Shown piece after piece: positions 13,165 to 30,410 of a stretch of DNA of 64,000 bases (position 1 is the stretch's first letter; every line of letters starts with the position of its first letter). Below the pieces are notes generated by a model, which worked only from the letters and a program-made list of their open reading frames with translations, was not told the origin of the DNA and made no database searches. The position numbers and the translations under genes are program-made. The stretch is from positions 1,100,001-1,164,000 of the forward strand of contig NZ_CP093337.1 of NCBI RefSeq assembly GCF_022637395.1. The letters are read 5' to 3'. The DNA is from Shinella sp. H4-D48 (GTDB lineage Bacteria; Pseudomonadota; Alphaproteobacteria; Rhizobiales; Rhizobiaceae).

Positions 13165-13240
13165 GGGCCTGTAGCTCAATGGTTAGAGCCGGCGGCTCAT
13201 AACCGCTTGGTTGGGGGTTCGAGTCCCTCCGGGCCCACCA
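13165..13240 (+). tRNA. tRNA-Ile (CAT, lysidine-modified minor isoleucine tRNA)
   Basis: A 76-nt cloverleaf with encoded CCA. Acceptor GGGCCTG pairs with CGGGCCC, discriminator A; D-arm GCTC/GAGC; anticodon stem GGCGG/CCGCT around loop CTCATAA (anticodon CAT); T-arm GGGGG/CCCTC with one G-T pair. The GGCGGCTCATAACCGCTTGGT block matches bacterial tRNA-Ile2, whose C34 is converted to lysidine by TilS to read AUA, rather than tRNA-Met. The Tn7-like element starts 4 bp after its CCA. Confidence 0.93.
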
Positions 13241-13244
13241 CCAT

Positions 13245-13313
13245 TGTTCATCGCCACATCAACCCGGACTGTCGTCGCACAAGTCTGGACTCGTCGCCAC
13301 ATAAGTCCGGATT
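13245..13313 (+). repeat. Left transposon end with three TnsB-type repeats
   Basis: After the TGT tip, three direct copies of a ~20-bp motif are read: 13251-13270 (TCGCCACATCAACCCGGACT), 13276-13291 (TCGCACAAGTCTGGAC-like, shortened) and 13294-13313 (TCGCCACATAAGTCCGGATT). They are close-packed, like the TnsB sites of Tn7 ends. The spacing and motif agree with the right end in inverted orientation. Confidence 0.85.
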
Positions 13314-13390
13314 CCTCCCCTTTTTGAGACTCGCATCGATATTTTAAGACCTCAGTTCTCTTCAAAGCTGTGCTGTGCAAAGCTGCACCT

Positions 13391-16300
13391 ATGCGATTTA
13401 TCGAATCAGGACCGGCTATCCCCATAGAACTGCTCACCGCTCGGGATCAGGGTGAAGTCGTGTTCTTTTGTGGTGCGGGTGTCTCCAAGCCTGCTGGCTT
13501 GCTCAGCTTTTTCGAACTCACCGTTCAGGTCATGAGAAAGTTGGGAGTTCAGGCCAGCTCAAAGGTGGGTATGCAGATGGCTCAGGCCATTGCGAAAAAC
13601 GATCCCGATCTTGCTCCGCCTTTCGATCAGGTTTTTGGGCAACTTCAGCGTACCTATACGACAGAAAAGATCGAAAAAGAGGTCACGCGCCTTCTGAAGA
13701 CACCGAAACAAGCAATCACGTATAATCACGAGGTTGTGCTCCGCCTGTCAAAAGACGTCAGGGGGATTCCGTTTGTCGTTACCACGAACTTTGACCACCT
13801 GTTCGAGCGAGCGATGCCGCGTTTGAGGCGATGGTTTCCGCCAATGCTACCAATCATGACGGGCGACAGCTTCCATTCTGGGGTTGTTTATCTCCATGGC
13901 AGACTCGGGAGCGGTCGCCAGACTGAGGGACCATCGAGCGCTCTCGTTCTTGGATCAGGTGATTTCGGTCGCGCTTATCTTGCCGACGGCTGGGCCACGG
14001 CTTTTTTCCGCCAACTCTTGGAGAGAAAAACAGTTGTCTTGTTGGGCTATTCGGCAGGCGATCCTCCGATCCGCTATCTCCTTGAGGGGCTGAACGCCAG
14101 TACCTCGGCGAAGCTGCAACCGATATATGCATTCGACCGAGGAGAGGAGAACGAAGTCCATTCTAAATGGCGTGACCTTGGGGTGTCTGGTATTCCCTTT
14201 GGCGATTTTGAAGACCTTTGGGGCACCCTTGAGGCATGGGCCGAGCGCGCAGATGATCCAGACGGGTGGCGCGCAAAAACGCTATCGATGGCGAACAATT
14301 CTCCGCGGGTGCTGAAACCATATCAACGCGGGCAAATAGCTGCTCTTGCTGCAACTCCTGAGGGAGCAAGGGGGTTTGCGGAGGCCAATCCTCCACCCTG
14401 TGCAGAATGGCTGTGTGTACTCGATCGGAATATTCGATATTCCCAGCCATTCAAGGATGGTTACGGCGACGATGCGAGCGAAATCGATCCTCTCTCAGAA
14501 TACGGTCTGGATGACGACCCTCCCAGGCTCGACGGGGGGAGGTCCGACGCAGGCGGATTAGATTTTTTAGGGAAGCTCCCAGCTGACACGGACAGCGACA
14601 TTTTCTTCCGCTTAGCCGGGGCCTCACCCAAACGGCGGGGTGCTATCCCCCGTCGGCTTTGGTCTCTAACTCGCTGGTTCGAAGCGGTCGCACACGAATG
14701 GATTGCGATTTGGTGGGCAAGCCGGCAACTCAATCTCCATCCCGATATTCTTTGGGGCATCAATCGACGTTTAACTGGCCATGGAACGAAATTTCCCGAC
14801 AACGTCCAGCGGGTGTGGAACCTAATCCTTGAGATAGAAGAAGAGCGCGGGATCGATGTTCATGACCTCGGATGGTTCGATTTCGTGGCGTTGCTCAAAC
14901 GCGGCGGCTGGAGCAGCGCGATTTATCGTTCTTTCGAGAAGGCAGTCAAACCTCGATTGAAAGTGGAAGTGTCATTCCGATCAATGCCGCTTTTGCCGAT
15001 GGGTGATGGCCACGACAGCAACGGCAAAATTGAGGAACTGATTAGGTTTTCGGTCCATTGCCCGTCGAGACATAACCACGATATTGACGTTCCCGTTGAA
15101 GCACTACCCCGCCTAGTTGAGATAGTAAACCGCTCGTTGGAGCGAGCTGCCGACCTTTTACAAGACACTGGCAGGTCCGCAGCTTACTTTCACCTGCCTG
15201 CCATAGAACCCGATGCTGGACGCGGCGAACGTTATGTTCCCAGCGATGGTCCAGCAGAACTCTTTCTTTGGGCCACCCAACTCTTCAAGCGTCTCGCCGA
15301 ATCGGACCCGCCAGTAGCCCTGGCGGAGGCCGCCAAATGGCCTCCGAACGATCGATTTTTCTTTGACAAGTTTCGACTGTTTGCGTGGAAGATTGATAGC
15401 CTATTCAACCCCGATGCCATCGCCGAAAGTATTTTGGCTCTTCAGGAGGATTCGTTTTGGGACCCGTATCTGGAGCGTGACCTTCTGCATTTACTCCGGG
15501 CCAAATGGGGAGATTTTTCGGCCGATCAACGGAAGGCAATAGAAGATCGCCTGTGCGAGCCACCTGATCGGTTCTCGGAAGATGATCCCACTGAGGTTGA
15601 ACGCCGCCTTCGGTACAATATCGGCTCTCGGCTTGGCTGGTTGGATCAGAATAGCTGTGAACTTTCACAGCCTGCGTTGAGCAAGTTAGCCGAGATCAGA
15701 GCAACTGCTGACTGGTCCGAACGCTCGGAAACCAAGGCCGACCGAGACATGGATGGTCGTGTAGGATGGGTGGAACGACGTGTCGACCCGGTCAATCTTG
15801 AGGGTGTCAGAGTTTCGAAACTTATCGCGCGCTCCATAGAATTGTCCGGACGCGACCAGGATGCGTTTGTGGAGTACGCGCCGTTCGAGGGCGTTGTGGC
15901 CGAACGGCCTTCATTTGCTCTTGCTGCACTGGCCTTCGAGGCTCGTCACCAGAACTACCCGGTTGGACATTGGAGGCAGTTACTTTCGAAATGGCCAAAG
16001 GAAGCCTCTCAGAGGGCAACCAGGTTGTGTGGGCTTAGGCTGGCAAGGTTGCCCCGGCAAGTTCAATTTGAGCTAAGGGCATACTTGACAAGTTGGATCA
16101 GGGATCATTTTACTGGAATCGCAACCTCTCACCCAGATGACTTTTATCGGGTCTGGGACGACGTTTTCGCCGCCCTGCAGGAATCCGGAGACGACGCCAC
16201 CTCCAGCGGTATGGGTGAGTTAACAGTGGGCGGCAAGATCGTCCAGCGATCCCGCAGGACTCTCGATCACGCTATCAATGGTCCCATCGGGCATCTTGTA

Positions 16301-17212
16301 GACGCATTGTTTGCATCGATAGGCGAACGGAAATTCAAGAAAAACGAAAGAATTTCCTCCAACGTCACTATCCGCCTCGAGCGCTCGCTGGGGTCAGTGG
16401 GCGAAGGAGCAGACCATGCGGCCTCCCTCCTGGCTCAGAGGCTTAACTGGTTGTATTACGTAGACAAAACTTGGACGACAAAGGTCGTCGTTCCGATTTT
16501 CGACCTTTGTCACCCGCTTGCCGAAGCGGCGTGGAATGCATTGCTGTTCCGTCAACGGGTGCCGCAGCCGACCGAACTTTTCGCTTTGCTCAAAGGCCAA
16601 TTTCTTAGAATTTTCGATGAACGAAAGGAATGGTTGTCGGAAGATCGCGACGAGCGACACGCCGTCGCTGTGCTGATCATCGCGACATACTGGAATAAAA
16701 ATAGTGGAAAATACATCAGCGACTACGAATGCCGGCAGGCCTTGCAATCAGTGGATGACATAGGCCGACAGACGGCCTTGTGGACCCTTCACCGGATTAT
16801 AGAAGAAGGAAAGGCTTGGAAGTCGTTCGGTAAAAGGTTCTTCGCAACAATATGGCCTCAAGAAGCTCGTTTTCAAACCGGGGCTGCTAGTGACACGATG
16901 CTACGCATAGCGGAGGATAAGCCAGACCAATTCCCCGAAATAGTGGACACGATCAAAGACTTCCTCAGGCCTATCGATCATCCCGACATGTTTATTTTCC
17001 GGCAGAGACGAGAGGACGAAAAGAGGGGGAGAGATTCTCTTGCTAAACGATGGCCTCATGAGGTCTTGGAAGTTGCGGACCGTATCGTTGCGCTCAAGCC
17101 AGCATACGTCCCTCACGAACTTTCTGCCCTACTAGCGGACATTGCCGAAGCCGATCCGACTCTCCGCGGTACAACCGCGTGGCGACGTCTAAGTGACCTT
17201 ATCATGAGGTGA
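13391..17212 (+). CDS. Large SIR2-domain protein (probable NADase anti-phage effector)
   Basis: A 1273-aa protein with an N-terminal SIR2-like domain: FFCGAGVS (residues 25-32), VTTNFDHLFE with Asn about 133, and YLHG with the candidate catalytic His about 169. The remaining ~1000 residues match no domain I can name. Large SIR2 proteins of this build (for example Dsr-type) deplete NAD on phage infection, so a defence role is likely but inferred. It is the first cargo gene inside the left end, and its codon use is less GC-rich than the chromosomal genes, suggesting separate acquisition. ATG 13391 is used; the frame is open to 13370 and no strong ribosome site is seen. Confidence 0.85.
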   Translation: MRFIESGPAIPIELLTARDQGEVVFFCGAGVSKPAGLLSFFELTVQVMRKLGVQASSKVGMQMAQAIAKNDPDLAPPFDQVFGQLQRTYTTEKIEKEVTRLLKTPKQAITYNHEVVLRLSKDVRGIPFVVTTNFDHLFERAMPRLRRWFPPMLPIMTGDSFHSGVVYLHGRLGSGRQTEGPSSALVLGSGDFGRAYLADGWATAFFRQLLERKTVVLLGYSAGDPPIRYLLEGLNASTSAKLQPIYAFDRGEENEVHSKWRDLGVSGIPFGDFEDLWGTLEAWAERADDPDGWRAKTLSMANNSPRVLKPYQRGQIAALAATPEGARGFAEANPPPCAEWLCVLDRNIRYSQPFKDGYGDDASEIDPLSEYGLDDDPPRLDGGRSDAGGLDFLGKLPADTDSDIFFRLAGASPKRRGAIPRRLWSLTRWFEAVAHEWIAIWWASRQLNLHPDILWGINRRLTGHGTKFPDNVQRVWNLILEIEEERGIDVHDLGWFDFVALLKRGGWSSAIYRSFEKAVKPRLKVEVSFRSMPLLPMGDGHDSNGKIEELIRFSVHCPSRHNHDIDVPVEALPRLVEIVNRSLERAADLLQDTGRSAAYFHLPAIEPDAGRGERYVPSDGPAELFLWATQLFKRLAESDPPVALAEAAKWPPNDRFFFDKFRLFAWKIDSLFNPDAIAESILALQEDSFWDPYLERDLLHLLRAKWGDFSADQRKAIEDRLCEPPDRFSEDDPTEVERRLRYNIGSRLGWLDQNSCELSQPALSKLAEIRATADWSERSETKADRDMDGRVGWVERRVDPVNLEGVRVSKLIARSIELSGRDQDAFVEYAPFEGVVAERPSFALAALAFEARHQNYPVGHWRQLLSKWPKEASQRATRLCGLRLARLPRQVQFELRAYLTSWIRDHFTGIATSHPDDFYRVWDDVFAALQESGDDATSSGMGELTVGGKIVQRSRRTLDHAINGPIGHLVDALFASIGERKFKKNERISSNVTIRLERSLGSVGEGADHAASLLAQRLNWLYYVDKTWTTKVVVPIFDLCHPLAEAAWNALLFRQRVPQPTELFALLKGQFLRIFDERKEWLSEDRDERHAVAVLIIATYWNKNSGKYISDYECRQALQSVDDIGRQTALWTLHRIIEEGKAWKSFGKRFFATIWPQEARFQTGAASDTMLRIAEDKPDQFPEIVDTIKDFLRPIDHPDMFIFRQRREDEKRGRDSLAKRWPHEVLEVADRIVALKPAYVPHELSALLADIAEADPTLRGTTAWRRLSDLIMR

Positions 17213-17686
17213 TCGTTTTGCGATTCACGTAGCATCCAGAGAGGCTCGCTTGGGACCTGCGCCTGCGCTAAGTACCCAGAATGCACGGTCTTCTCACCCA
17301 ATGATCTTGGTCTCGACCCGGCACGATTGGCTGGAACCTATGTTGCCGCCGCTCTTTGGTCGAGTGACACGGCTCGGTTTTATGAAAAAGTCGCCGCCAT
17401 CGGCATCGGTGGAATGTTCGTGAGGTGTAACAGCAACTGGTGGGCAAAGGCTTGAAACTTGGTAATTCGCGTTCGTCCTCCTCCTGCAACTTTGTCATAG
17501 TCAGGACCGGTAGCGTATGGACGTCTGCGCGAAAAAAGATTCGCACGGGCTATTGACCTTCCGATTTTTGTTCTCTATTTGTTCGCGCATGCTTAAAATC
17601 GACGCCCGCCTCATAAGAATAGGTTGACCTCCGCTTGCCGCGATCGCCGCGGCGACGACCAACCGTATTGTCTTGAGGTTTTGCAA
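17213..17686 (+). other. Intergenic region between SIR2 gene and TnsA-like gene
   Basis: 474 bp without a supported gene. The SIR2 reading frame stays open after its stop, from 17213 to a TGA at 17453-17455, encoding about 80 residues (including DLGLDPARLAGTYVAAALW), but no start codon with a ribosome site is visible; it may be a decayed remnant or chance. The distal part carries a plausible promoter at 17553-17581. Confidence 0.4.
17553..17581 (+). promoter_or_regulatory. Candidate sigma-70 promoter for the TnsA-like/protease pair
   Basis: TTGACC at 17553-17558 and TATTTG at 17576-17581 are separated by 17 bp, about 105 bp upstream of the start at 17687. The local DNA is AT-rich compared with its surroundings. 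Called by pattern only. Confidence 0.4.
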
Positions 17687-18304
17687 ATGGGTATCGCACA
17701 GCGCGCGAAGTCGCTTCGCACGAGTCGTAATTCCGCGTCCATCCGTGCATTTTATCCGGCCGCCACCATCAAATGCGATGGGCCTGCCGTGTTCCGATCC
17801 CAGGCGGCGCGTGATGCCGCTTGCCTGCTGGACGTCAATCCCTCCATCATTTCGTGGCACTGTATGCCTGTTTCCCTGGATTGTGGGGACGCTGTCCACG
17901 TCCCCGATTTCGGTGTCGTGAACAACGACGGCGGCAGGATGCTGGTCGACGCGCCGGACAGGGCGCTGCCGATTGCTATCGGCAAAATCGAAACCTCGGC
18001 CGAGCAGCAGGGCTTCCGTTATCGTCGTCTGCTCGCAGATGAAGTCTACGATGGTCCCCGGCTTCGCAATGCGAAGGACCTGCTTCGATACGGAAGCTGT
18101 TATCTCGCCCTCGGCGATAGACTGAAATTGCTCGCGACGCTCGAAGAACACGGCAGTCTGACGATTGTCGAATGCCTGACCGTTTTCACTGAAACTAAGC
18201 CGGTTGCCGGACTTGCGCAGATGATCCTCAACGGTTTCGTCGAGGTTGATCTGGATGCGGAGCTACTCGGACCCCAGACGATGGTGCGGAGAATAGGGAA
18301 CTGA
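17687..18304 (+). CDS. TnsA-like protein with degenerate endonuclease site
   Basis: A 205-aa protein whose layout follows TnsA: FRSQAARDAACLLDVNPSII, then ISWHCMPVSL, HVPDFGVVNNDGG (Asp about 74) and MLVDAPDR, followed by a C-terminal helical segment. TnsA normally has an ExK or QxK after the PD strand; here that position reads LVDAP, so the catalytic lysine appears absent. It resembles the core TnsA-like protein at 21948 in overall order, including the end (GFVEVDLDA vs GELDIDLSM). ATG 17687 has TTGAGG 9 bp upstream. It is 42 bp ahead of the AAA+ metalloprotease gene and likely forms an operon with it, possibly as adaptor or substrate selector; function is inferred. Confidence 0.65.
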   Translation: MGIAQRAKSLRTSRNSASIRAFYPAATIKCDGPAVFRSQAARDAACLLDVNPSIISWHCMPVSLDCGDAVHVPDFGVVNNDGGRMLVDAPDRALPIAIGKIETSAEQQGFRYRRLLADEVYDGPRLRNAKDLLRYGSCYLALGDRLKLLATLEEHGSLTIVECLTVFTETKPVAGLAQMILNGFVEVDLDAELLGPQTMVRRIGN

Positions 18305-18346
18305 CCACTCCATCAAGTCCCCGTCACTCCATTTCCCGAGGCATCC

Positions 18347-20374
18347 ATGCAAGCCTACACCGCCAATCTGATGGGCAACCGCGATCCCTATCACGACTCC
18401 AAATACGAGCTGTCTCTGCCGGCACATCTTGCGATCATCGCAATGTCACGGTCCATCCGCCAGTTCCTGAAAAGGCGGACGCCGTTTGTTGCCGCGTTCG
18501 TTATGCCTCCGCAGGCAGAGGTCCATTCTTACAAAGCCGCTGCCAGGTGGCTGCTCGAAGGTACAGTGCCGCTCGGAGGGGAACACGGCAGCAACTATGT
18601 CCTGGTGGTCGACGAGGAAACTGACCTGGCTGACCAGTTTTCCGGTTTTCGAAAACTGAAGGAACTCAAGCGGGCGATCATTCTTCTTCAGGACGCCGAA
18701 CTAGCAACGGACGAAATCCGCATCGCGGCTGACATCGTTGTCACCGTGCCGATGCCACTTCCGAGCGACTACCGGATCGCAGCAAGGCGTATGGGTTTCG
18801 GGAACATCACGGAAGCTGACGCCGAACTCCTCGCGAGCCAATCCCCCAAGCGAGCTGAACTCGGGCTGCGTCGCGGCCGATCCATTGCTGCTAGCCTCGG
18901 AAAATTGCGCCGGTTCCCTGAAGTCGAAAAGGAAACCACGTCCTCCGACGCTCCGTTGTCCGCTCCGACGCTGCGGGAGTTGCCGGGCTACGGTGACGCA
19001 CAAACGTGGGGCCTCGAACTTGCCGAAGACCTGACAGCATGGAAAGCAGGCATGCTTGCGTGGGATGCCGTTGATCGCGGTATTCTGCTTTCCGGCGCTC
19101 CGGGGTCCGGAAAGACGTCCTATGCGGCGGCGCTGGCGAGGACCTGCGGCGTGCCGCTTGTTTTGGGTTCCGCCGCTAGGTGGCAGGCTGCCGGTCACTT
19201 GGGCGACATGCTCAAAGCCATGCGAAAGGCGTTTTCCGAAGCGGCCAAACAGGCACCGTCGATTCTGTTGATCGATGAATTCGACGGCTTCTCCAGTCGG
19301 GACGATAGAGTTGGCGGCAATGACAACTACCACCGCCAGGTTGTCAATGCGCTGCTGGAACTGCTGGACGGCGCGCAGTCGCATGAAGGCGTGGTCGTGA
19401 TTGGCGCGACGAACTATCCGGACGTTATCGATCCTGCTCTGTTACGTGCGGGACGGCTCGAACGCCATTTCTCCATTCCACTTCCAGACGACGCGGCTCG
19501 CAACGAAATCTTTCGCTTCTATCTCCGTGACGAGTTCCTTAGCGAAAATCTCGATGCTCTTGTATCCGCGAGCGATGGTTGGTCCGGTGCCGATATCGAG
19601 CGTTGTGTTCGAGATGCCCGCCGTACGGCGCGAAGGCTAAATCGGTCGATGCAGCTGGCCGATCTCGCCGATGCCATGCCCCCCGTCTTGAAAGTGCCGA
19701 TGGCGGTTCAGCGCTGGGTGGCCGCTCACGAGCTTGGCCACGCCATCTTGGGCGTACTGCTTGAGGCTGAACCGCTCGTATCGGTTTCCGTCCAGCAGAT
19801 GTGCCGTGCCGGCGGCGCGTCACAGTCTCTCGGTTTCACGAAGTTCGAAGAGCGGCTGTTCAGTCGGAAGACGTCCACGTACTTCCGTAACAAGATCGCC
19901 ATCCTGCTCGGTGGTATCGCCGCGGAGGAGCTGTTGTTTGGCGATTATGGAAACGGAGCCGGCGGAGACCCGTCCGCAGACCTGAACCGTGCAACCGACA
20001 TCGCAACGATGATGGAAATCAAATGGGGTCTCGGATCGACTCTGGTAGTCGAGGCCGACGATACACCCCGTGGACTGTCTGTGATCCGATCGACCCGCAA
20101 AGGGTTGCGAAAGTCCGTCGAAGCGACGCTACAGGCAGAATTCCGGCGCGCCAAAACCTTGCTCGAGGAACACAGGAATGCGCTTCTCGATCTTCATGGC
20201 CGCCTGTTGCGGGAGGCAGAATTGTCGGCGGAAACAGTAAGGTCCGCTATCGAGACCAGCAGCAGCGATCACAATTTCGTGAATACGGGCAGCACAATGA
20301 ACGGCGGAGAGGTCAATTTCAGGACCTCGATCTCGAAGGACGGCCTTATCTCCAATACCAGAAAAGAGGTCTGA
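18347..20374 (+). CDS. FtsH-like AAA+ zinc metalloprotease without membrane anchor
   Basis: A 675-aa protein. Residues 1-240 form an N-terminal domain I cannot name, with no membrane segment. The AAA+ module follows: Walker A GAPGSGKTS (K256), Walker B ILLIDEFDGF (D310, E311), and the second region of homology TNYPDVIDPALLRAGRLERHF-like arginine fingers. The C-terminal peptidase M41 domain has zinc motif HELGH (461-465, Glu 462 catalytic) and the third ligand in PSADLNRATD (D545), as in FtsH. So it should be an ATP-driven protease, but soluble. It is paired with a TnsA-like gene inside a Tn7-like element; degradation or remodelling of the transpososome, or of an invader protein, are both possible. 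Confidence 0.85.
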   Translation: MQAYTANLMGNRDPYHDSKYELSLPAHLAIIAMSRSIRQFLKRRTPFVAAFVMPPQAEVHSYKAAARWLLEGTVPLGGEHGSNYVLVVDEETDLADQFSGFRKLKELKRAIILLQDAELATDEIRIAADIVVTVPMPLPSDYRIAARRMGFGNITEADAELLASQSPKRAELGLRRGRSIAASLGKLRRFPEVEKETTSSDAPLSAPTLRELPGYGDAQTWGLELAEDLTAWKAGMLAWDAVDRGILLSGAPGSGKTSYAAALARTCGVPLVLGSAARWQAAGHLGDMLKAMRKAFSEAAKQAPSILLIDEFDGFSSRDDRVGGNDNYHRQVVNALLELLDGAQSHEGVVVIGATNYPDVIDPALLRAGRLERHFSIPLPDDAARNEIFRFYLRDEFLSENLDALVSASDGWSGADIERCVRDARRTARRLNRSMQLADLADAMPPVLKVPMAVQRWVAAHELGHAILGVLLEAEPLVSVSVQQMCRAGGASQSLGFTKFEERLFSRKTSTYFRNKIAILLGGIAAEELLFGDYGNGAGGDPSADLNRATDIATMMEIKWGLGSTLVVEADDTPRGLSVIRSTRKGLRKSVEATLQAEFRRAKTLLEEHRNALLDLHGRLLREAELSAETVRSAIETSSSDHNFVNTGSTMNGGEVNFRTSISKDGLISNTRKEV

Positions 20375-21591
20375 TGTGCGCCTTGGCTCTCCTATCACAA
20401 GCGAGCGGTTACCGGCCAAGTTGCATCGATGCGCTGGTCTGAACCTTGTTTCGCAAGGAAAAATCAAAGAATTCAATTCCTTGAAACTAAAGGATTCGAT
20501 TGCAATGCGAGTTCTTGAGTTATCGAGCGCACGAATTTTGGCTGGATTTCCTTTGCCAAAGGAATGGCAGACCTCGCTGCGAAAGGATTCATGCGCTGCC
20601 TCGGGAAAGGAACGTCTCTTTCAACGGCATGCGAATCCGGAGCGGGAGGGTGAAGACGGGCCGTGTTGCACATCCGGGAATAGTCACGCCGATCCGGCGG
20701 GACCGGACGTGCACGGTTCAACCGTGTTGGATTTCGTCTATGGCGAGGCAGATGAGATTTCCATCTTGTTCAAGGATTCGCGGAAATCGCGGGGCGAAGT
20801 TCCAGGAATCCTTAGGCAGTGTCTCCGGATGATCAGCCGATCTTGTTCGCGGCAAGGAAATCGATGCGAGTACCTGAATTTTTCAAGGAATCATCTGCCT
20901 CGGAAAATGTCGCGAAGATCGTTCGGCAACGAGAACATTTTTACGGACGGTGCAGCTTCCGTATCAAATAGCCAGATTCAATTTTTGATTGAGTTCGGCA
21001 TTGATGAACTATGTCGCCACTCGCTGCGCTGGCACTCGCGCAAAAGACCTGATTCGCGATCATTTGCGGACGATTGCTCGAAAAAACAGGGACTTGAAAA
21101 CGGTGAATTTCCGACTCTATATGTCGGGCAACGGTGGCTGAGCACAACCTTGAAGAAGGTGTTCGTGTTACCGGAGGCAAAACGAGCCGCCCGGCAAGGC
21201 GGCCCGTTTTTAGATGGTTGGGCCTGTTACCAGCAAGCTTCAACCGAGTGGTCAACAAAAGGAAATACCACCCATGGCGTACAAATAGTCCGGGCAACCC
21301 GGAAAATCAACAAGAAAACCGGTTACTTAGCCCGTCGGCGCGAAAAGCGCCTACGGGGACGGCGATCCCGTGTTTTCATTGCTGCTCCCGGTTCGCGGTC
21401 TCGAATGGAGAGCGAATACGGCGCTGGTAGCTGATCAGCCCTCCAAGCCTGATCACGCCTCGCAACACCGAGGGGCATCTCCCATCATAATGGGCCTTCG
21501 GCTGCCCCGTTCGAGCGGAGCCGCCGTTCGCCAACCAGTTTCGTTTTCATGCCGCGCGCGCCATCGCGCCCGGCAACAGGAGAAGTGCGTC
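20375..21591 (+). other. 1.2-kb region without a convincing gene, upstream of the transposition operon
   Basis: A long frame (20376-21434, GTG start) is open here, but the product is Ser/Arg-rich, codon third positions are not GC-biased as in neighbours, and it runs through a terminator, so I do not accept it. The first half repeats AAGGAAT/AAGGATTC-like octamers about nine times between 20450 and 20890. Several hairpins follow, including GGCGC-GAAA-AGCGCC near 21340, and a four-codon frame after AAAGGAAATACC near 21270. It could encode a structured RNA or a long leader. Confidence 0.4.
21183..21211 (+). terminator. Rho-independent terminator inside the transposon
   Basis: Stem GCCGCC / GGCGGC (with an outer CG pair and one mismatch) around CGGCAA, followed by TTTTT. 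It ends whatever transcript covers 20375-21180, and the minus strand also has GTTTT after the stem. Confidence 0.7.
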
Positions 21592-21750
21592 ATGAAACCA
21601 GACAACCGCATCAAGGCTCTCGACCAATTTTTCGCTATTGGTCGCACCGACACGTTCGTTCCCTCGACAATGACCTTCGGAGAACTGGAGGAAGAGTTTC
21701 CACCGCTTCCGCCCGTCTACTGCGCCATCACCGACAGGGATGATTTCTGA
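21592..21750 (+). CDS. Small hypothetical protein upstream of tnsA
   Basis: A 52-aa acidic protein (MKPDNRIKALDQFF... ending TDRDDF) with ACAGGAGAAG at ribosome-site distance. The longer in-frame start at 21370 has no such site. It may be the first gene of the tns operon, with a second tiny ORF at 21825 before tnsA. No family recognised. Confidence 0.5.
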   Translation: MKPDNRIKALDQFFAIGRTDTFVPSTMTFGELEEEFPPLPPVYCAITDRDDF

Positions 21751-21824
21751 GCCGCCGCAGCAGACTCGAGCCGGGGCGATATCGCTCGTCCCGGCTCCGA
21801 CACGCAAAGGAAAGGAGAACGCCC

Positions 21825-21944
21825 GTGTTCGTGAAACCCGCCGACCTTATCGAAAAATCCGTGCCGATCGACGCCAAGGGGATGGCCACCCTCCGGGACG
21901 TTGCCGAGGTTGCTCGTCTTCTGCTTAACGTCGCGGAGAACTGA
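21825..21944 (+). CDS. 39-aa hypothetical protein immediately before tnsA
   Basis: GTG-started ORF preceded by AAAGGAAAGGAGAA. The product, MFVKPADLIEKSVPIDAKGM then a short amphipathic helix (LRDVAEVARLLLNV), ends 3 bp before the tnsA start. The good ribosome site and tight spacing support translation; it could be a small transposition factor or only a translational coupler. Confidence 0.5.
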   Translation: MFVKPADLIEKSVPIDAKGMATLRDVAEVARLLLNVAEN

Positions 21945-21947
21945 CAC

Positions 21948-22718
21948 ATGGACCTTATGGATTTCGGCCCGCACAATCTGCCGCCATCTCTGTTCACCTC
22001 CGACCATGTTCCCGCATGGACCCCTGATTGGGGTACGCGCTACCGCACCCTTCCGGTCACGTTCCCGACGGACAAGGCTCCTGCGGGGGAAGTCTTCGCT
22101 CGTCTTCCCCTGATGGCGGACGGCCTCGTTCACGCGGACACCGATCCCGATGTCACGACGATCGCGGCCTATCCGATGACGGTGGAGTATATGGCTCCGA
22201 CCCGCAACAACATGGCGGTGAAGCGCGCTCATGTGCCCGACGTCGCGCTGCGCCGCACCGATGGCAGCGTCGTCGTCATCGACTACATTCCGCTCAACGA
22301 ACAGGCTGAAAAGCCGTGGATCGCGAAGCGCACCCATGTCCTCGTGGACCACATGGCCGCGCACTACGGTTGCTCCTACGCCGTCCATGACGAGCGCTGC
22401 GTTCACGCCCGTCCACTGTTCCCGAACCTCAAGGCCATGTGGACGCACAAGGCGACGGCACTCGACCCGTCCGAACTGAAGCTCGTGGTCCAAGCTCTCC
22501 GCCGCTGCCGTTTTCCGTCACGTCTCGGCATCCTGAGGAGGACACTGCACGAGAACGGAGAACTGCGCGGGGTCTTCACCTCCCTCGACGTCGATGGGGT
22601 GGACCTCGTCTACACCGCCGTCATGCAGATGTGCATCTCGGGCGAACTCGACATCGATCTGTCCATGCCGTTTTCGGCGACGACACCCGTCACTGCACGC
22701 AATCTCAGGGGAGCCTGA
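21948..22718 (+). CDS. tnsA: TnsA-like transposition endonuclease with altered active site
   Basis: A 256-aa protein at the tnsA position. N-terminal half: HADTDPDVTTIAAYPMTVEY, KRAHVPDVALRRTDG (Asp about 98), VVVIDYIPL; C-terminal half resembles a winged helix. In Tn7, TnsA cuts the 5' ends of the element with a Glu-Asp-(Q/E)xK site. Here the Asp strand is present but the lysine strand reads IDYIP, so the nuclease site looks degenerate. If inactive, the element may form cointegrates or TnsA may act only as a structural partner. ACGTCGCGGAGAACTGAC gives a weak ribosome site; translation is probably coupled to the preceding ORF. It is followed 3 bp later by tnsB. Confidence 0.7.
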   Translation: MDLMDFGPHNLPPSLFTSDHVPAWTPDWGTRYRTLPVTFPTDKAPAGEVFARLPLMADGLVHADTDPDVTTIAAYPMTVEYMAPTRNNMAVKRAHVPDVALRRTDGSVVVIDYIPLNEQAEKPWIAKRTHVLVDHMAAHYGCSYAVHDERCVHARPLFPNLKAMWTHKATALDPSELKLVVQALRRCRFPSRLGILRRTLHENGELRGVFTSLDVDGVDLVYTAVMQMCISGELDIDLSMPFSATTPVTARNLRGA

Positions 22719-22721
22719 TAG

Positions 22722-25037
22722 ATGGGAATGGAGCGCTTCGACTTCACCAAGCCTGCCGAGGGCGTCGTTACGCAGGAGAATATCCCTCCGACACCACCGC
22801 ACGGCAAGTGTGACCAGGCTTTCGACATGCGTGCGGGCGACGTCTATCACATCTTCACCTCCGACCGGATGGTCTTCACTCCGTACCAGGTGGAGGAGTG
22901 GGTCAATCTCGGCAATCCCGGGGACGACATGCTCGTGCGCCTGAAGTCTCCCCGAAACGCACTCGTGATGCACCTGTCCAACTGGCAAATCGCTTACTTG
23001 CAGAACGACGGCCGCATTATGCCTGTCGGCGCGGCCGCTGCGGAGGCACGTGGCGGAGGAACGCCTGGCTACGGCTTGTCCATCAAGGGGAAGCGGCTCG
23101 AGAAGGCCGAATGGATGCTTCTCTACATCGATGCCGTCTTCAAGGCCTTTGGCGAATACTGCAAGGGTGGTCGGTCCCGGAAGATCATGGAGTGGGCCGT
23201 CAAGGACCTCGCCGAAAAGCGGGGCGAGACCCCGCCGTCGATGTCGGCGCTCTACGAGAAGCTCGCACGGCTCCGCAAGGATCGTAACTTCGACAGGACG
23301 GCGGCCGTTGCCGACCATCCACGTCGGGGCAATCAAACACCGCGAAAGCCGAACCGCGCCGAGCAGGCGGTGCGTGAAGCGGTCGAGGATACGATCTTCG
23401 TTGGCGGTGACTGGAACGGCGTCAAGGCACTCCTCTACGGGTGGTCCGAACCCGGTGGCAAGTACGCCGATCTGCCCAACCTCGTTCGCAAGATCGGAGA
23501 CGTTCCTCCCGTTTTCAGCGACACCACCATCCAGCGCCGTCTCGCACAGGTAGACCGGTTCACGCGCCACAGTCTGGAATACGGGGATGAAAGTGCCGAA
23601 CTCGCCTTCGCCGATCGCATCAGGCAGCTTCGCCCAGATTACCTGCTGGACATCGTGGATGTCGATCACTCGACATTGAATATCGTCGTCTTTGGCGAAG
23701 GCGTCGCATTCGGCCGCCCCGATCTTATCCTCTTCCGTGATCGCTACTCCGGGATCATCCTCGGCTGGGCCGTCACCTTCGGCCCGCCGTCCTACGAGAC
23801 TTTTCTCGAGGGACTTGCTCACGCCATGTCTCCCAAGGACCCGGACAGTCTACCGGAGGGCGTCACCTACCGCTGGTACGGACGCCCGTTCCGTCTGGGC
23901 GTCGACAACGCGAAGCACTTGATCGGTATGGATATCCACGGCGCGGCCCGCCAACTCGGCATGCAAACGGTCAAATACCGTCCGGGTCATCCGTGGGAAA
24001 AGGGTGCCGAAGAACACATGTTCCACATTCTCGGCGTCGGCCTCGTCGAACGGCTCCCGGGTAGCACGACCATGTCTCCCGATGAGCGCATGAAGTTTGA
24101 CGAGGAGCGCTTGAAGGCCATGCCGCAGATCGACATCGCCGAACTCAACGGCTTCCTCGCCTACTATTTTGCGGAAATCTACAACCGCGCGCCTCATCAG
24201 GGGCTTGGCCCTATCCTAACCGCGTCGGGCGTGCCTGAGGATATCTGGGCGATCGGCATCTCCAAGGTCCCGAAGCGGCCGGTCCAGGACCCTTCCATTC
24301 TCGTCAGGCTTGCTGGGCAGACCCGTGAAGTCGGCATCTCCGACCACGGCATCATCCGCTGGGACAATATCGAGTACCAGTCCGCCGCCGCCAACGCGCT
24401 CAAGCTATCTGCCCGTCACAAGCGCGGCGAAGGGAAATTCCACGGCAGCAAGTACCCGGCGACGCGCGATCCTGCTGACCTGTCGAAAATCTGGCTGGAA
24501 ATTCCATGGGAGAAAGGCCGCTTCATCGAGGTTCCGGCCAGCGGCGCTTACGCCTCCTATGCGACGGGCCTCAAGGCCTACCAGCACAAGCGGATCATGG
24601 AGCATCATCGTGCGAAGACGAACGAGGCCGCGAATGCCCCCGCGCTGATGGCGGCCAAGGCCGACCTCATGCAGCAGATCGTGGACATCCACGCGAAGCG
24701 CCAGAAGCACGGCACGGCGCTCAAGCTGGCCCGTTTCATGACCAAGCAGGCCACGCGTATCCAGCGCTCGCGCCCCGTCGTCGTCGAGGACGGCGTGATC
24801 ACCCAGCGCCTCGATCTGGCGAGTCCGAGGAAAGCTGCCCGCCTTCAGCCTCGTTCCTCGATGGCGAAGGCCCGGATGCCTGTGGCCCGTCCCCCTGAAA
24901 TCGAAGACGTCGCCGAGTACGAAGTCTTCGTCGAACACGTCGAAGACATGCTTCCTGCGCCAGAGCCGGAGCCTCCGCGGCCCGGCACTTCCTCGATCGA
25001 CGACATCGCCGCCCGCAACGAAGAATGGGACGACTGA
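22722..25037 (+). CDS. tnsB: TnsB-family DDE transposase
   Basis: A 771-aa transposase of the retroviral-integrase (rve) type. N-terminal DNA-binding helices precede the catalytic core: first Asp in VDVDHSTLN (D315), second in LGVDNAKHL (D395), Glu in KGAEEHMF (E430), a DD(34)E spacing. A Mu-type beta-barrel and a C-terminal basic tail (after ~620) follow. It would bind the repeated motifs at both ends and perform 3'-end cleavage and strand transfer. It starts 3 bp after tnsA and ends 3 bp before tnsC, so the operon is tightly packed. Confidence 0.92.
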   Translation: MGMERFDFTKPAEGVVTQENIPPTPPHGKCDQAFDMRAGDVYHIFTSDRMVFTPYQVEEWVNLGNPGDDMLVRLKSPRNALVMHLSNWQIAYLQNDGRIMPVGAAAAEARGGGTPGYGLSIKGKRLEKAEWMLLYIDAVFKAFGEYCKGGRSRKIMEWAVKDLAEKRGETPPSMSALYEKLARLRKDRNFDRTAAVADHPRRGNQTPRKPNRAEQAVREAVEDTIFVGGDWNGVKALLYGWSEPGGKYADLPNLVRKIGDVPPVFSDTTIQRRLAQVDRFTRHSLEYGDESAELAFADRIRQLRPDYLLDIVDVDHSTLNIVVFGEGVAFGRPDLILFRDRYSGIILGWAVTFGPPSYETFLEGLAHAMSPKDPDSLPEGVTYRWYGRPFRLGVDNAKHLIGMDIHGAARQLGMQTVKYRPGHPWEKGAEEHMFHILGVGLVERLPGSTTMSPDERMKFDEERLKAMPQIDIAELNGFLAYYFAEIYNRAPHQGLGPILTASGVPEDIWAIGISKVPKRPVQDPSILVRLAGQTREVGISDHGIIRWDNIEYQSAAANALKLSARHKRGEGKFHGSKYPATRDPADLSKIWLEIPWEKGRFIEVPASGAYASYATGLKAYQHKRIMEHHRAKTNEAANAPALMAAKADLMQQIVDIHAKRQKHGTALKLARFMTKQATRIQRSRPVVVEDGVITQRLDLASPRKAARLQPRSSMAKARMPVARPPEIEDVAEYEVFVEHVEDMLPAPEPEPPRPGTSSIDDIAARNEEWDD

Positions 25038-25040
25038 CCA

Positions 25041-25985
25041 ATGACCGAATTCCACGAGAACCCCTTTAAGACGCCCGAAGAACGTCTGGCGGCCGCCGCC
25101 CTTGGTGTCCCCGAGCGCCAGGCCATGATCGAGCGTCTGCTCTACAAGTATCCCGTCTTCAAGAAGGGCGAGCAGTTCATCCGCGACTTCCATTTCCCAT
25201 TCGCGGGTGGTTCCCATGGCACAGGCAAGATCGGCGGTCTGCTCGGGTCTTCGCGCGCGGGCAAATCTACGATCTGCGCCTACTATGTCGCAGGTATCGA
25301 CATGCCGGGCTGCCCCGGTGAAGACGGCGAGCGTTACCCGGTGCTGCACATCACGGCCACGGACCAGACCACACCATCGAGCTTGGCAGACACCATCGCC
25401 AGCGCGACCGGCATGCGGTCTCTGCCCGCCAAAATCAAGACGCAGGCGCGCATGAACATGGTCCTTGATCGCCTCCGTCAGGTGCGCACCGAACTCGTCA
25501 TCCTCGACGATGCGCAGTTCCTGTTCCTTGGGCGCACGAGGTCTTATCTGTCGGGTTTCCAGAGCTTCCTCAAGCAACTCGCTGACCTCCGCACCCTCAA
25601 CGTCCTCCTCATCGGCGAGGAAAGCGTCCACGACGTCATCGCGGGTGTGGACTACCTGGAAGGCCGAGGCGGGTTCAAGCGTGAGGTCCTGAAGCCGCTC
25701 GGCGACGCGGGCAAGGAGTTCGACGACTTCAGGCTTCTGCTCAGCAAGATCGACGCAAGGTTGCCCTTCAAGGAGCCGTCCGTCCTTCACGGAAGTTCGG
25801 CCGTGGCCGCCGACGTCCATGCCTTCACGGGCGGCTCTATCGGTCGGGTCATGAACCTCGTCCGCGACGCTGCGGCACTGGCGATGAACGACGGAGCCAG
25901 CTGCATCATGCTCGACCACCTGCGCCGTTCCTCGACGACGCTGGTCCGTCTCGGCGACACCCGCAACTATTTCCGGAAGGCCTGA
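25041..25985 (+). CDS. tnsC: TnsC-family AAA+ transposition regulator
   Basis: A 314-aa AAA+ ATPase. Walker A GSSRAGKST with K75, Walker B LVILDDAQF with D156/D157, and sensor region TLNVLLIGEES. TnsC/TniB/IstB-type proteins bridge the target selector (TniQ/TnsD) and TnsB, forming ATP-bound filaments on DNA. 314 aa is closer to TniB size than to Tn7 TnsC (555 aa). It starts 3 bp after tnsB and is 3 bp before tniQ. Confidence 0.9.
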   Translation: MTEFHENPFKTPEERLAAAALGVPERQAMIERLLYKYPVFKKGEQFIRDFHFPFAGGSHGTGKIGGLLGSSRAGKSTICAYYVAGIDMPGCPGEDGERYPVLHITATDQTTPSSLADTIASATGMRSLPAKIKTQARMNMVLDRLRQVRTELVILDDAQFLFLGRTRSYLSGFQSFLKQLADLRTLNVLLIGEESVHDVIAGVDYLEGRGGFKREVLKPLGDAGKEFDDFRLLLSKIDARLPFKEPSVLHGSSAVAADVHAFTGGSIGRVMNLVRDAAALAMNDGASCIMLDHLRRSSTTLVRLGDTRNYFRKA

Positions 25986-25988
25986 CGC

Positions 25989-28160
25989 ATGAACGTCTCT
26001 CCGTCGATTTACCTCCCGTTCTCCAATTGGAGTCTGAAGCCATTACTTGGTGAGTCCGCCAGGGGTTATTTCCTGCGGCTGGTCGCCAACGAGGGGCACT
26101 ACAGCGCCAGCGTTTATGGAAACGAGATCGGCATCAACGGGCGTCGTCTTACCCCCGAAGAGACCCTCGACACCCTCCTCACGCTGCCGATCGGTGACGA
26201 ACACAAGGCCGCCCTTCGTCTGTACAGCCCTCTGGCCGACGGATCGTTCTACAATCTCGGCGGGCAGCGGCTCCGGCAGAGGCAGATGGTTTTCAGCACA
26301 CGCAGGTTCTGTCGCGCGTGCTTGGCGGTTTCACCACATCATCGGGTCTGGTGGGATATCTGCGCTTTCAGGACCTGTCCTGAACACGGCACTCCGATTG
26401 AGGACGTGGATGCCTCGGGCCAGCCCATCGGTTGGTGGTGGGCCGAGGTCGGCAGCGACACGAGCGGGAGGCTGCTCGCCAGATGCGCTCCGTCGCAAGC
26501 CGACAGGCACGACAGGACACTGGAGGCGTTCATCCTTGAGCGCCTTGGCGTCTTGCCCCAAACACGGTGGCCATTGCTGGACGGATATCATCTCTACGAG
26601 GTCATCGAGACTTGCGAATACCTCGGTATGTGGCTCGGCAACGAGCGCACCTTCACCGCGCCGGCCGACCAACTGGGAAAAATGGCTGTGGGCATGGCGG
26701 CGCTGTCGGGAACGTGGCAAGGCCTCGTCTCCGCGATGCGGGGCTGGTTTACCGAGCGCGTTCCATCGGATGTGCGCCGTGAGGGTAAAATGGAGAGCAT
26801 GGCTTGGGCGTGGAACGCTTGGCCCAAATTGCCCGGCTCGGCTATCGGCGACATGCTGAAGCGCGCCACGACCGAGGCGTTCGAGCCGATCGGAAAAATG
26901 GGAAAGAAGCGCTTCAGGACTACGAGAGCCTTCTATGCCGAAAAAGCGCTTTCGAAGGTGGCTGGCGAACTTGATGTGAAGATGGATGCGCTGCTGCCAC
27001 TCGCCCGCCACCTTCACCTTATTCCCGATACGGACGAGGCTTGGATGCTATCACCTGATGGTGCGTCTGTGCTGAAGAGGGCTGTCGCCGATCTTGTGCC
27101 TTATCCGTTGGCATCCGAAATCATCGGTTTCGCGACATGGGAATGGCGAGAGTTGGTCGGCAATGATGTGATCCGGGCATTCTCTCAGTTTGCAGACGGA
27201 AGCATGTACCTTCGGAAGGATATCGAAAATGTCGTCGGGCGAATGATCAGAAAGGCCACCGTATCCGACTCCATGACGATCTCGATCAGGACGTACGCTC
27301 GCCATAATCGCATGACCGTCGGCAACGTCCTGATGCGCATTCTTGACGGACAGTTGGCCGCAGCACGAGGTTGCGGTAAACAGAGGGGACTGAGAAACCT
27401 AAGGATCGTAGCTTCAAACCGTCGGCAGCGTTCCGCTCGGTTGCCATCTGGCGCGAGCGTACAGAATGCTATGACTGTTGCAGACGCTGCTATCATCCTC
27501 CGTCTTCACCATGAGGTGGTGGCGCTGCTCGTGAGAGACGGACGGCTCGAAAAAGCCCACGGCGGAATGGTCGCACGCAGCAGTGTTATGGACTTTCACG
27601 CTCGTTATGCGAACGGCCAGCTATACCGTCCAGCTCTCGGATGTGCCAGTTCTGAAGTACGAGACCGCCTGTCGAAAATCGGCTTGTCCGTCGAATGCCT
27701 CGGTGATCGGGTTGCCAATGTCGTCGTGCTTCGCGAAGCTGCCCGTCGTGCGCTCGAGCTTGAGTTCGATCCCGACGATCGACACGTCGCACGAAATGTC
27801 CTCTGGGAGGAATTCAGGACGTTGGCCATCGTTCGCTGCCCCGTCTTCACGGTGCCGCCGACCGTACCCGAGGTCGGGGTCAAGCTCCGCACGGCAACGA
27901 GGAAGATTGCGGTGAGCGCGAGCGTGGATAGATCGTCGGGAGCTGTTTCGCTGACGTTTGACCTCCATCCTGAACTAACCGGCCGCCGTTGGAAGCTGTT
28001 CGAGAAGAGCGAGGCGGACGTGCGGCAGGCGCTTGGATTTATGTCGTGGAACAAGATGGCCGATAACGCTGGATGGCGACTGTCTTGGGTGGCGGAAGAC
28101 CTCGTGGGCGTGCGACTGGCAGTCGATGCTCTGGTGGGGATGCACAGATGGTTCAAGTAA
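25989..28160 (+). CDS. tniQ: TniQ/TnsD-family target-site selector
   Basis: A 723-aa protein. The N-terminal ~300 residues are a TniQ domain with a zinc site: FCRAC near residue 106, and TCPEHG near 133. The long C-terminal part is basic and has helix-turn-helix-like stretches (for example TVADAAIILRLHHEVVALLV). In Tn7, TnsD binds a specific attachment site in a conserved gene. Because the element lies directly 3' of tRNA-Ile2, this protein probably recognises that tRNA gene; that is an inference. Last gene of the tns operon. Confidence 0.88.
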   Translation: MNVSPSIYLPFSNWSLKPLLGESARGYFLRLVANEGHYSASVYGNEIGINGRRLTPEETLDTLLTLPIGDEHKAALRLYSPLADGSFYNLGGQRLRQRQMVFSTRRFCRACLAVSPHHRVWWDICAFRTCPEHGTPIEDVDASGQPIGWWWAEVGSDTSGRLLARCAPSQADRHDRTLEAFILERLGVLPQTRWPLLDGYHLYEVIETCEYLGMWLGNERTFTAPADQLGKMAVGMAALSGTWQGLVSAMRGWFTERVPSDVRREGKMESMAWAWNAWPKLPGSAIGDMLKRATTEAFEPIGKMGKKRFRTTRAFYAEKALSKVAGELDVKMDALLPLARHLHLIPDTDEAWMLSPDGASVLKRAVADLVPYPLASEIIGFATWEWRELVGNDVIRAFSQFADGSMYLRKDIENVVGRMIRKATVSDSMTISIRTYARHNRMTVGNVLMRILDGQLAAARGCGKQRGLRNLRIVASNRRQRSARLPSGASVQNAMTVADAAIILRLHHEVVALLVRDGRLEKAHGGMVARSSVMDFHARYANGQLYRPALGCASSEVRDRLSKIGLSVECLGDRVANVVVLREAARRALELEFDPDDRHVARNVLWEEFRTLAIVRCPVFTVPPTVPEVGVKLRTATRKIAVSASVDRSSGAVSLTFDLHPELTGRRWKLFEKSEADVRQALGFMSWNKMADNAGWRLSWVAEDLVGVRLAVDALVGMHRWFK

Positions 28161-28220
28161 CTAAATTGATTCGTTCGTGGGCCGTCGATACTGCAACACC
28201 TTGATAAATTTCTCAATTAG

Positions 28221-28376
28221 CTATTCTGGGCAACCGTCAGCGCGATAGCCGGCTCGCATTTTGTCGTAATCGAAATCACGAGGTGTATTTCTCAGATCAT
28301 ACAGTAGGTCTGTGCCAGCCGGAATGTAAGCCTTAGGTTCTTGTAATTCATTCTCCGCGGAACAAGTATTGCTCAT
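28221..28376 (-). CDS. Small hypothetical protein
   Basis: About 51 aa (MSNTCSAENE... ending RADGCPE), rich in acidic and polar residues. The open frame begins at 28406, overlapping the GNAT-like gene by 59 bp; ATG 28376 reduces the overlap to 29 bp. No ribosome site is decisive and no family is recognised. It would follow the GNAT-like gene in one transcript. Confidence 0.35.
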   Translation of the reverse strand: MSNTCSAENELQEPKAYIPAGTDLLYDLRNTPRDFDYDKMRAGYRADGCPE

Positions 28377-29163
28377 CACGCTCATTTCCGACATCGAATT
28401 CTCCATGCCACCCTTTTAGACTACCAAGAATTCTGGTCGACAATTCTTTCGGCAACAACTGATTGTCGACTGCGATGTTGGCTATTAGCGGGAAAACACT
28501 GACCTGGTCAGCCGAGATCAAATCGTTGATATCTTGCGCAATCTCTGGCGGAAATTCTTGTTGATGCCCTCGAAAGCTCTTCTCAATTTTCTTTTTATGT
28601 GTGTTCCACGCGCCACGGGTTGGGCGAAATCCAAAAGCCGCCCAAGTTACACGCCCATCGTGAACAGCGTACAGCGTCATTTTCTTGAAGCTGATTAGGT
28701 GGAGGGAGCGACAGAGTTCCTGCGTGAAACGCCGGCATCGGCCTTGTCTGCGTAGATCGGGTTCGACAAACACCTCATCAATGTCCGCGATCAGGTCCCC
28801 GAATAGAAGCTGGACCTTTGACTTGATGCTTCCGGTAGTTCGGACGGTAAACACAAGCGGCCTGTCCTGGGTAACGGTGACCTCGATACCGTGAATCTCG
28901 TTGTTCAGATGAACGGCCACAGTTTGTGCCTTCTCGGCAAACGAAGGTCCTGTCCGAGCCACGGGCGTCTCTAAATCAGGGACGTGGGGTGCCTCAGCCT
29001 TAGATAGGAATGAGAATAATTTCGAGAATATAGATTTCAAAGTCGGCTCCACCGAGTGCATTCGATGGGCATACCGCCTACAGATGAATTCAAAGTTGAG
29101 GGGTTGTTTGTGGTGATCTGCCGTCGAATTTTCATCCGGCTGCGACTGGAGTCTCCTCGGCAA
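28348..29163 (-). CDS. GNAT-like acetyltransferase-fold protein
   Basis: A 271-aa protein whose central region reads DIDEVFVEPDLRRQGRCRRF, which resembles motif A of GNAT acetyltransferases (RRQGR...), followed by YAVHDGRVTWAAFGFRPTRG, a typical GNAT motif B (Y...FGF). Residues 1-100 are not recognised. A later start such as ATG 29062 (MHSVEPTLKS) is possible and no ribosome site decides it. It is the only cargo on the minus strand, divergent from the TIR gene. Low-GC codon use. Role unknown. Confidence 0.55.
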   Translation of the reverse strand: MPRRLQSQPDENSTADHHKQPLNFEFICRRYAHRMHSVEPTLKSIFSKLFSFLSKAEAPHVPDLETPVARTGPSFAEKAQTVAVHLNNEIHGIEVTVTQDRPLVFTVRTTGSIKSKVQLLFGDLIADIDEVFVEPDLRRQGRCRRFTQELCRSLHLISFKKMTLYAVHDGRVTWAAFGFRPTRGAWNTHKKKIEKSFRGHQQEFPPEIAQDINDLISADQVSVFPLIANIAVDNQLLPKELSTRILGSLKGWHGEFDVGNERDEQYLFRGE

Positions 29164-29284
29164 CAGGTTCTTTAAATGACGTCGGCCTCTGGAAATACGT
29201 GTGGAAGGGGAATGATACTACTTGGTGGTGAATATGCGGAGACTTAGTATGGTCTTCGGTTTCGACTCACTACTGAGGTGTATC

Positions 29285-30232: not shown

Positions 30233-30389
30233 ACTCAAGCGTTTCCAATGCCTCAATTGCGGACATCGTTTCGAAGTCGAAGTTCTGACGCCGGAGGAAA
30301 AGCGGGAAGCGAAACGCGAGGATAGGCCCGTTTCGGCGGTGGCGTGTCCGCAATGCCGGCGCACAGATATCCGCGGCGGCTGGGGCTGA
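30225..30389 (+). CDS. Small zinc-ribbon protein
   Basis: A 54-aa protein with CLNCGHRF near the N-terminus and CPQCRRTD near the C-terminus, a four-cysteine zinc ribbon. ATG 30225 overlaps the TIR gene stop by 8 bp, so translation is probably coupled. It is the last gene before the right transposon end. It may regulate or partner the TIR protein, or be unrelated. Confidence 0.7.
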   Translation: MTELKRFQCLNCGHRFEVEVLTPEEKREAKREDRPVSAVACPQCRRTDIRGGWG

Positions 30390-30410
30390 TGACCCCCGGC
30401 TTGCAACGGA

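Follow-up and report, generated by a model that had tools for sequence, protein, structure and literature searches.

A gene for a TnsA-like protein and a gene for a soluble FtsH-type protease form a two-gene accessory cassette of Tn7-like transposons in the order Hyphomicrobiales. We identified the pair in a stretch of 64,000 nucleotides of Shinella sp. H4-D48 (contig NZ_CP093337.1, positions 1,100,001 to 1,164,000; hereafter the window), where gene 1 (17687–18304, 205 aa) and gene 2 (18347–20374, 675 aa) lie on the forward strand with a gap of 42 bp. Both were called by our own codon-usage gene caller, in agreement with a preliminary description, made from the sequence alone, that had reported these two closely spaced open reading frames on the same strand. 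Our analysis demonstrates that the two genes are adjacent, that they co-vary and that in most cases they are found on the same side of the tns operon as tnsA.

A Pfam search with gene 1 gave no match, and NCBIfam returned a sub-threshold match to a TnsA-like family (NF033179, 31 bits vs. a cut-off of 110). Alignment of gene 1 with a profile of seven operon TnsA proteins by hhalign was full-length over 175 columns, with a probability of 97.8 and an E-value of 1.3e-12. The predicted model of the protein (pLDDT 78.9, pTM 0.55) matched four chains of the PDB at E≤0.001, all of them Tn7 TnsA (one in the TnsABCD transpososome, one of TnsA alone and two of TnsA with TnsC), with modest TM-scores of 0.38–0.45 by query length. 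The columns of the gene 1 alignment were assigned to the catalytic residues of TnsA in this analysis, and we take the Asp, Glu and Lys residues of TnsA to have PD-(D/E)XK roles. At the Lys column, Lys was absent from all 24 aligned copies; the Glu column held Ala, Ser or Val in each of the 22 copies reaching it, and the catalytic Asp was invariant. The C-terminal half was the best conserved part of the protein. Taken together, the predicted model and the alignments show that gene 1 encodes a putative TnsA-fold protein devoid of the nuclease residues. The earlier assignment of gene 1 as a TnsA homologue lacking the catalytic lysine was thus correct, and the Glu is missing as well. Compared to Tn7 TnsA, gene 1 shares the fold and the full-length profile homology but holds other residues at the catalytic Glu and Lys positions; it is also an additional TnsA homologue next to that of the operon and has a protease as its partner.

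In gene 2, Pfam domains PF00004 (AAA, E 5.1e-32) and PF01434 (Peptidase_M41, E 3.2e-19) were both matched above their cut-offs, and Walker A and B motifs, the HExxH motif and the Asp serving as third zinc ligand are all present. These motifs include K256 (19112–19114), D310/E311, HELGH at residues 461–465 (19727–19741) and D545 (19979–19981), as had been read from the sequence. Residues K256, D310/E311, H461, E462, H465 and D545 were invariant in 16 of 16 and 22 of 22 intact relatives in two alignments that overlap in membership and leave out short or split copies. The preliminary description had named an active site lacking conservation as an outcome that would refute it; among the 22 aligned intact relatives the site is conserved throughout. 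Hydropathy analysis of the window protein revealed no N-terminal transmembrane anchor, the highest 19-residue Kyte-Doolittle mean within the first 240 residues being 0.93; among 38 listed protease rows the mean exceeded 1.6 in five, with a maximum of 1.83 in L041, a protease without an adjacent gene 1. Owing to the lack of the anchor, gene 2 is a member of the M41 family and not a canonical FtsH. The predicted model (22 rows, pLDDT 78.5) had FtsH chains as its top PDB matches, and its N-terminal region formed a shortened alpha/beta domain with helices, for which a sequence search of the PDB yielded four hits, all weak (E 0.03–0.84). Gene 2 scored 204 against the NCBIfam FtsH model TIGR01241 (cut-off 600). 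Like the FtsH/Yme1 AAA+ zinc proteases, it is a single chain that unites AAA and M41 domains and has the complete set of motifs, but the window protein differs by the absent membrane anchor and by its own N-terminal alpha/beta region, and the family is separate from canonical FtsH in the tree described below. Judged by its sequence, gene 2 clearly encodes an AAA+ protease of the FtsH type that is soluble and has its active site intact. On the rhizobial plasmids L107 and L108, gene 1 is annotated as 'hypothetical protein' and gene 2 as 'AAA family ATPase'.

The pair lies inside a 17.3-kb Tn7-like element (13245–30544) beside its attachment site, a tRNA-Met gene (13165–13240, forward strand; ARAGORN and Rfam). 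In 18 of 20 other genomes of the same genus, homology of the flank stops at 13240–13241, the 3' boundary of tRNA-Met, and in the nearest relative, G019, other genes occupy the insertion site. At the tRNA side, the element end (13245–13314) consists of TGT followed by three TnsB-site-like repeats (13251, 13272 and 13294); the other end (30409–30544) carries three inverted repeats on the reverse strand (30409, 30440 and 30518), outermost ACA. All end repeats are 21 bp long, and a scan with them detected a single further site, at 30891 beyond the element, which differs at six positions. A perfect 34-bp palindrome (30483–30516) is located between two of the end repeats. The 5-bp flanks of the element, where a target-site duplication would be expected, differ (ACCAT vs. 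AAAAT). As tnsABC and tniQ are located between repeat-bearing ends at a defined site, the element is a Tn7-like transposon, demonstrated by its ends. The ends at 13245 and 30544 enclose the pair, which rules out a position outside the element in the window and bears out the earlier placement of the pair within such an element. Ends 89–90% identical to the tRNA-side end were found in L072 and L032/L033. In L072, from another genome of the same genus, the window-like end also follows tRNA-Met, and in genome G005 such an end is located 1.3 kb from an unpaired protease gene and oriented with the protease outside. G005 also holds a region of about 20 kb in two copies (L032 and L033) of the same gene order, with an unpaired DUF6634-protease unit.

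All tns genes of the window element are encoded on the forward strand. The operon tnsA (21948–22718; NF033179, E 3.8e-12, below cut-off) is followed by the transposase gene tnsB (22728–25037, alternative start 22722), the gene of the AAA+ regulator tnsC (25041–25985; PF05621 TniB, E 2.4e-10) and the target selector gene tniQ/tnsD (25989–28160; PF06527 TniQ, E 7.4e-9). Identification of tnsB, which had no Pfam match and a weak IS21 transposase match (E 0.012), was based on its position and on homologues in other tnsABC-tniQ loci. The interval that separates the pair from tnsA contains a hairpin followed by a T-run (21180–21211, forward strand), which is conserved in an alignment with L042, L043 and L044 and is probably a terminator; an RNA family in this interval was also considered and gave no Rfam match. 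An open reading frame of 52 aa occurs between protease and tnsA in L042 (13951), L044 (13785) and the window (about 21592). The products from L042 and L044 look alike, that of the window is of equal length and different sequence, and a Pfam search with those of L042 and the window gave no match. At other loci an unnamed gene of 166–174 aa is conserved between protease and tnsA (L031 6089–6589, L091 12277–12801, L092 12512–13012, L095 6367–6891). Cargo of the window element comprises a forward SIR2-domain gene (13391–17212; PF13289, E 6.5e-16) related to Dsr1 (NF041818, 396 bits, under the cut-off of 1400) and a forward TIR-domain gene (29249–30232; PF13676, E 4.1e-17); a reverse-strand GNAT-like gene (28348–28920, sub-threshold match) lies inside as well. 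The element thereby carries two NAD-linked defence-type domains, one at either end.

A scan of a genome collection with gene 1 yielded 29 loci, and all loci whose titles name a genus belong to Hyphomicrobiales. Beside gene 1, an uninterrupted protease of at least 600 aa was found at 21 of the 29 loci and a split, truncated or remnant one at six, and two (L062 and L069) had none; with eight loci devoid of an uninterrupted protease of this length, copies decay or are lost. Linkage was further analysed in 35 genomes picked for holding a gene 1 match, namely 10 of the 11 hit genomes of one scan and those of 25 of the 29 loci (three of the loci, L046, L053 and L067, come from genomes also counted as G007, G031 and G012, respectively, and L068 was left out). 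They contain 44 copies of gene 1, from 45 match rows with the two rows of the broken G117 copy merged. A protease-family match occurred within 800 bp of 38 copies, and tniQ within 50 kb on the same contig of 25 copies vs. about 1.1 expected; several copies without linkage sit near contig ends (e.g. G031, G119 and G122:C89). Conserved adjacency within Tn7-like elements, proposed earlier as a check, was therefore found, and the opposite outcome, homologues lying mostly apart, was not. Adjacency in several families of the order also rules out chance pairing.

Protease relatives without an adjacent gene 1 presented a different picture, as none of 19 had tniQ within 50 kb; for 16 of these the whole contig, contigs of any length counted, contained no TniQ. 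Protease relatives are here the matches down to about E 1e-107 plus one fragment, with canonical FtsH and partial AAA matches excluded, and G120:C35, the second part of a split pair protein, was removed from 20 unpaired rows. In 23 of the 25 tniQ-linked cases the pair was located on the tnsA side, 5' of tniQ (p 1e-5). The protease lay upstream of tnsB at all 19 loci, at a distance of 1.2–3.9 kb in 16 of them. The strands of pair and tns genes agreed in 11 of the 25 linked cases and at 13 of the 19 loci, and a single expression unit of pair and tns genes is thus not general. At two loci from an even sample of the order, L031 and L095, gene 1, the protease, two small genes and tnsABC are all read in the same direction and separated by short gaps. 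For some other pairs, e.g. that in L107, the stretch analysed contains no tns gene.

This even sample of Hyphomicrobiales comprised 397 genomes, 18 of which had gene 1 profile matches. Among 16 stretches from 13 of those genomes, 11 contained the protease, and seven of the 11 also TnsB; the protease was offset from gene 1 by 1.3 kb in L090 and 2.9 kb in L094, and none was found in stretches L088 and L096–L099. The pair is not universal in elements of this type: it occurred within 15 kb of eight of 42 TnsB matches. This count results from manual comparison of two scans, and the TnsB profile, being of the window type, overlooks TnsB proteins of other types. Elsewhere in the class, seven of 385 genomes besides that of the window were matched, and seven stretches from six of them contained no M41 match. 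These matches were rejected as pairs, the gene in five of the seven stretches being found directly upstream of tnsB, i.e. tnsA itself.

Distances of gene 1 and protease were correlated in Mantel tests (r 0.72, and 0.67 after accounting for TnsB; 19 loci), and those of TnsB and TnsC more so (0.92; 16 loci); near-copies are included at these loci and host phylogeny is not controlled in these values. Once the protease was controlled for, gene 1 distances were unrelated to those of TnsB and TnsC (partial r 0.06 and 0.02), and the protease had a weak partial correlation with TnsB (0.31). L042 and L044 share 85% identity in gene 1 and 70% in the protease vs. 15% in TnsB. Their DNA matches in two blocks, one that begins shortly before gene 1 and extends almost to the end of the protease gene, and one that reaches the start of tnsA. 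Further upstream, L042 and L043 have 4.3 kb of DNA in common (89% identity), and they may be located at the same site. As judged from these sequence comparisons, the pair is exchanged between unrelated TnsABC cores, an argument against a partner adapted to a single transposase. The protease tree comprised 53 proteins, of which 43 were paired, seven unpaired and three canonical FtsH. 'Paired' is a loose label here, given for a gene 1 up to 3.5 kb upstream (so that L094 counts), and proteins below 430 aa were left out. Six unpaired proteases fell among the paired ones, with at least four label changes in the tree, and the seventh, L041, formed a basal long branch of unsure place. The unpaired proteases adjoin DUF6634 or phosphoesterase genes.

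The operon TnsA of the window (21948–22718), L022 (6352–7146), L042 (14186–14956) and L059 (13279–13965) lacks the catalytic Glu and Lys in the alignment and keeps the Asp in two of the four cases, and the nuclease site is intact in L031, L091 and L095. The elements of the former four may thus transpose without cleavage by TnsA. Tn7-like elements without TnsA have been described to form cointegrates (PMC11406308). As its operon TnsA lacks Glu and Lys, replicative transposition may apply to the window element; it is no rule for carriers of the pair.

Several gene sets recur next to pairs. PIN genes upstream and a phosphoesterase gene (only a fragment in L063) downstream of the pair occur in L049, L052, L061, L063 and L067. 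At four loci (L051, L055, L056 and L057), two genes lie divergently next to the pair, one of about 2,030 aa, which in L051 encodes a DEAD/MZB helicase, and one of 1,090–1,133 aa. A CBASS system is located beside the pair in L108, and an FRG protein matching a PADLOC candidate is among the neighbours.

Among known systems, IetAS and other protease-based defence systems resemble the pair in that the AAA domain of gene 2 matches IetA models (best E 1.3e-28). However, the match is limited to this domain, and gene 2 combines ATPase and protease in one chain, the protease IetS being a separate, subtilisin-like type. ClpX, which acts on complexes of Mu and of a CRISPR-associated Tn7-like system, is likewise an AAA+ unfoldase linked to transposition; it is, however, supplied by the host and carries no protease domain itself, whereas gene 2 is transposon-borne, of the M41 type and accompanied by a TnsA-derived partner. 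According to one report, ClpX is proposed to remove the post-transposition complex of the CRISPR-associated system, it raises integration by that system about 4-fold in human cells, and deletion of clpX lowers propagation in an E. coli selection by about 200-fold (PMC12326709). A genomic island of Pseudomonas aeruginosa clone C also carries an FtsH copy, but this xenolog is membrane-anchored, and the account consulted names no TnsA-like partner (PMC6629908). Main texts in the open-licence full-text literature, among the matches listed, contained no description of such a pair, and the terms 'FtsH' and 'M41' are absent from the main text of two surveys of Tn7-like elements (PMC8649781 and PMC10293859).

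We tentatively favour, at somewhat less than an even chance, that gene 1 is a TnsA-derived adaptor feeding transposition complexes to the protease. Gene 1 would still dock on Tn7-type transposition complexes, as TnsA does, and hand over TnsB, TnsC or the whole assembly to the protease hexamer, which would unfold or degrade it, so that the complex would be cleared from a new insertion or transposase levels would be lowered. By analogy, a removal step after transposition would suit an AAA+ protease that is encoded by the transposon and has a TnsA-derived partner. Arguments in favour are the TnsA fold and profile homology of gene 1, the tie of the pair to tniQ and the tnsA side, contrasting with unpaired proteases, the correlated divergence of the two proteins, the invariant active site in intact copies, the compact one-strand gene order in L031 and L095, and the precedent of ClpX aiding a Tn7-like system (PMC12326709). 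The exchange of the cassette between unrelated cores argues against it, as do the independence of gene 1 from TnsB and TnsC once the protease is controlled for, the presence of the pair near a minority of TnsB matches, the decay and loss of copies together with pairs lacking tns genes in view, and the frequency of defence-type genes among the neighbours. The last of these and the exchange between cores would fit a device for competition or defence nearly as well: gene 1 would mimic TnsA and sense either a component of a phage or the transposition complexes of invading Tn7-like elements, whereupon a protein of the invader or of the host would be destroyed by the protease. We regard this as doubtful but a serious possibility. 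It would account for the SIR2, TIR, CBASS, DEAD/MZB helicase, FRG and PIN genes beside the pairs and for cassettes that move between cores or stand without tns genes. Defence neighbours prove little, however, since Tn7-like elements carry much defence cargo, and the strong, position-specific link to tniQ and tnsA argues against such a role. Moreover, PADLOC models gave no match to gene 1 and matched gene 2 through its AAA domain only, and gene 1 had no match among phage records and viral contigs.

That the protease acts on host or element proteins unrelated to transposition, e.g. in stress or maintenance, with the TnsA origin of gene 1 irrelevant, appears improbable to us. The DUF6634 and phosphoesterase neighbours of proteases without gene 1 do indicate that other partners are possible, and phosphoesterase genes also follow some pairs, but it is the proteases with gene 1, and not those lacking it, that show the link to tniQ, and gene 1 has retained the TnsA fold. 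We consider it very improbable that two neighbouring genes without joint function are kept together by movement of the transposon alone. The split, truncated and lost proteases would be in line with such hitch-hiking, yet adjacency in several families of the order, correlated divergence that persists after control for TnsB and the conserved protease active site all speak against it. Control of the transposase, limitation of copy number and defence are all possible functions of the pair.

In a more specific and rather unlikely form of the adaptor reading, this class of Tn7-like elements would bring its own disassembly machine: a retired TnsA would recognise the strand-transfer complex and recruit the soluble FtsH-type protease, and the same protease would be re-aimed elsewhere by exchange of the partner for a DUF6634 protein or a phosphoesterase. 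If true, the element would be freed from host ClpX and would set its own rate of transposition. The clearance of transposition complexes after insertion and the self-limitation of Tn7-like elements are questions with practical weight: in human cells, dependence on ClpX is reported to hamper a transposase of the CRISPR-associated kind (PMC12326709). With a natural AAA+ protease that is linked to Tn7-like elements and has a TnsA-derived partner, the removal of the complex would become directly testable. If the pair is instead a defence module, it would represent a new form of partner-guided proteolytic defence.
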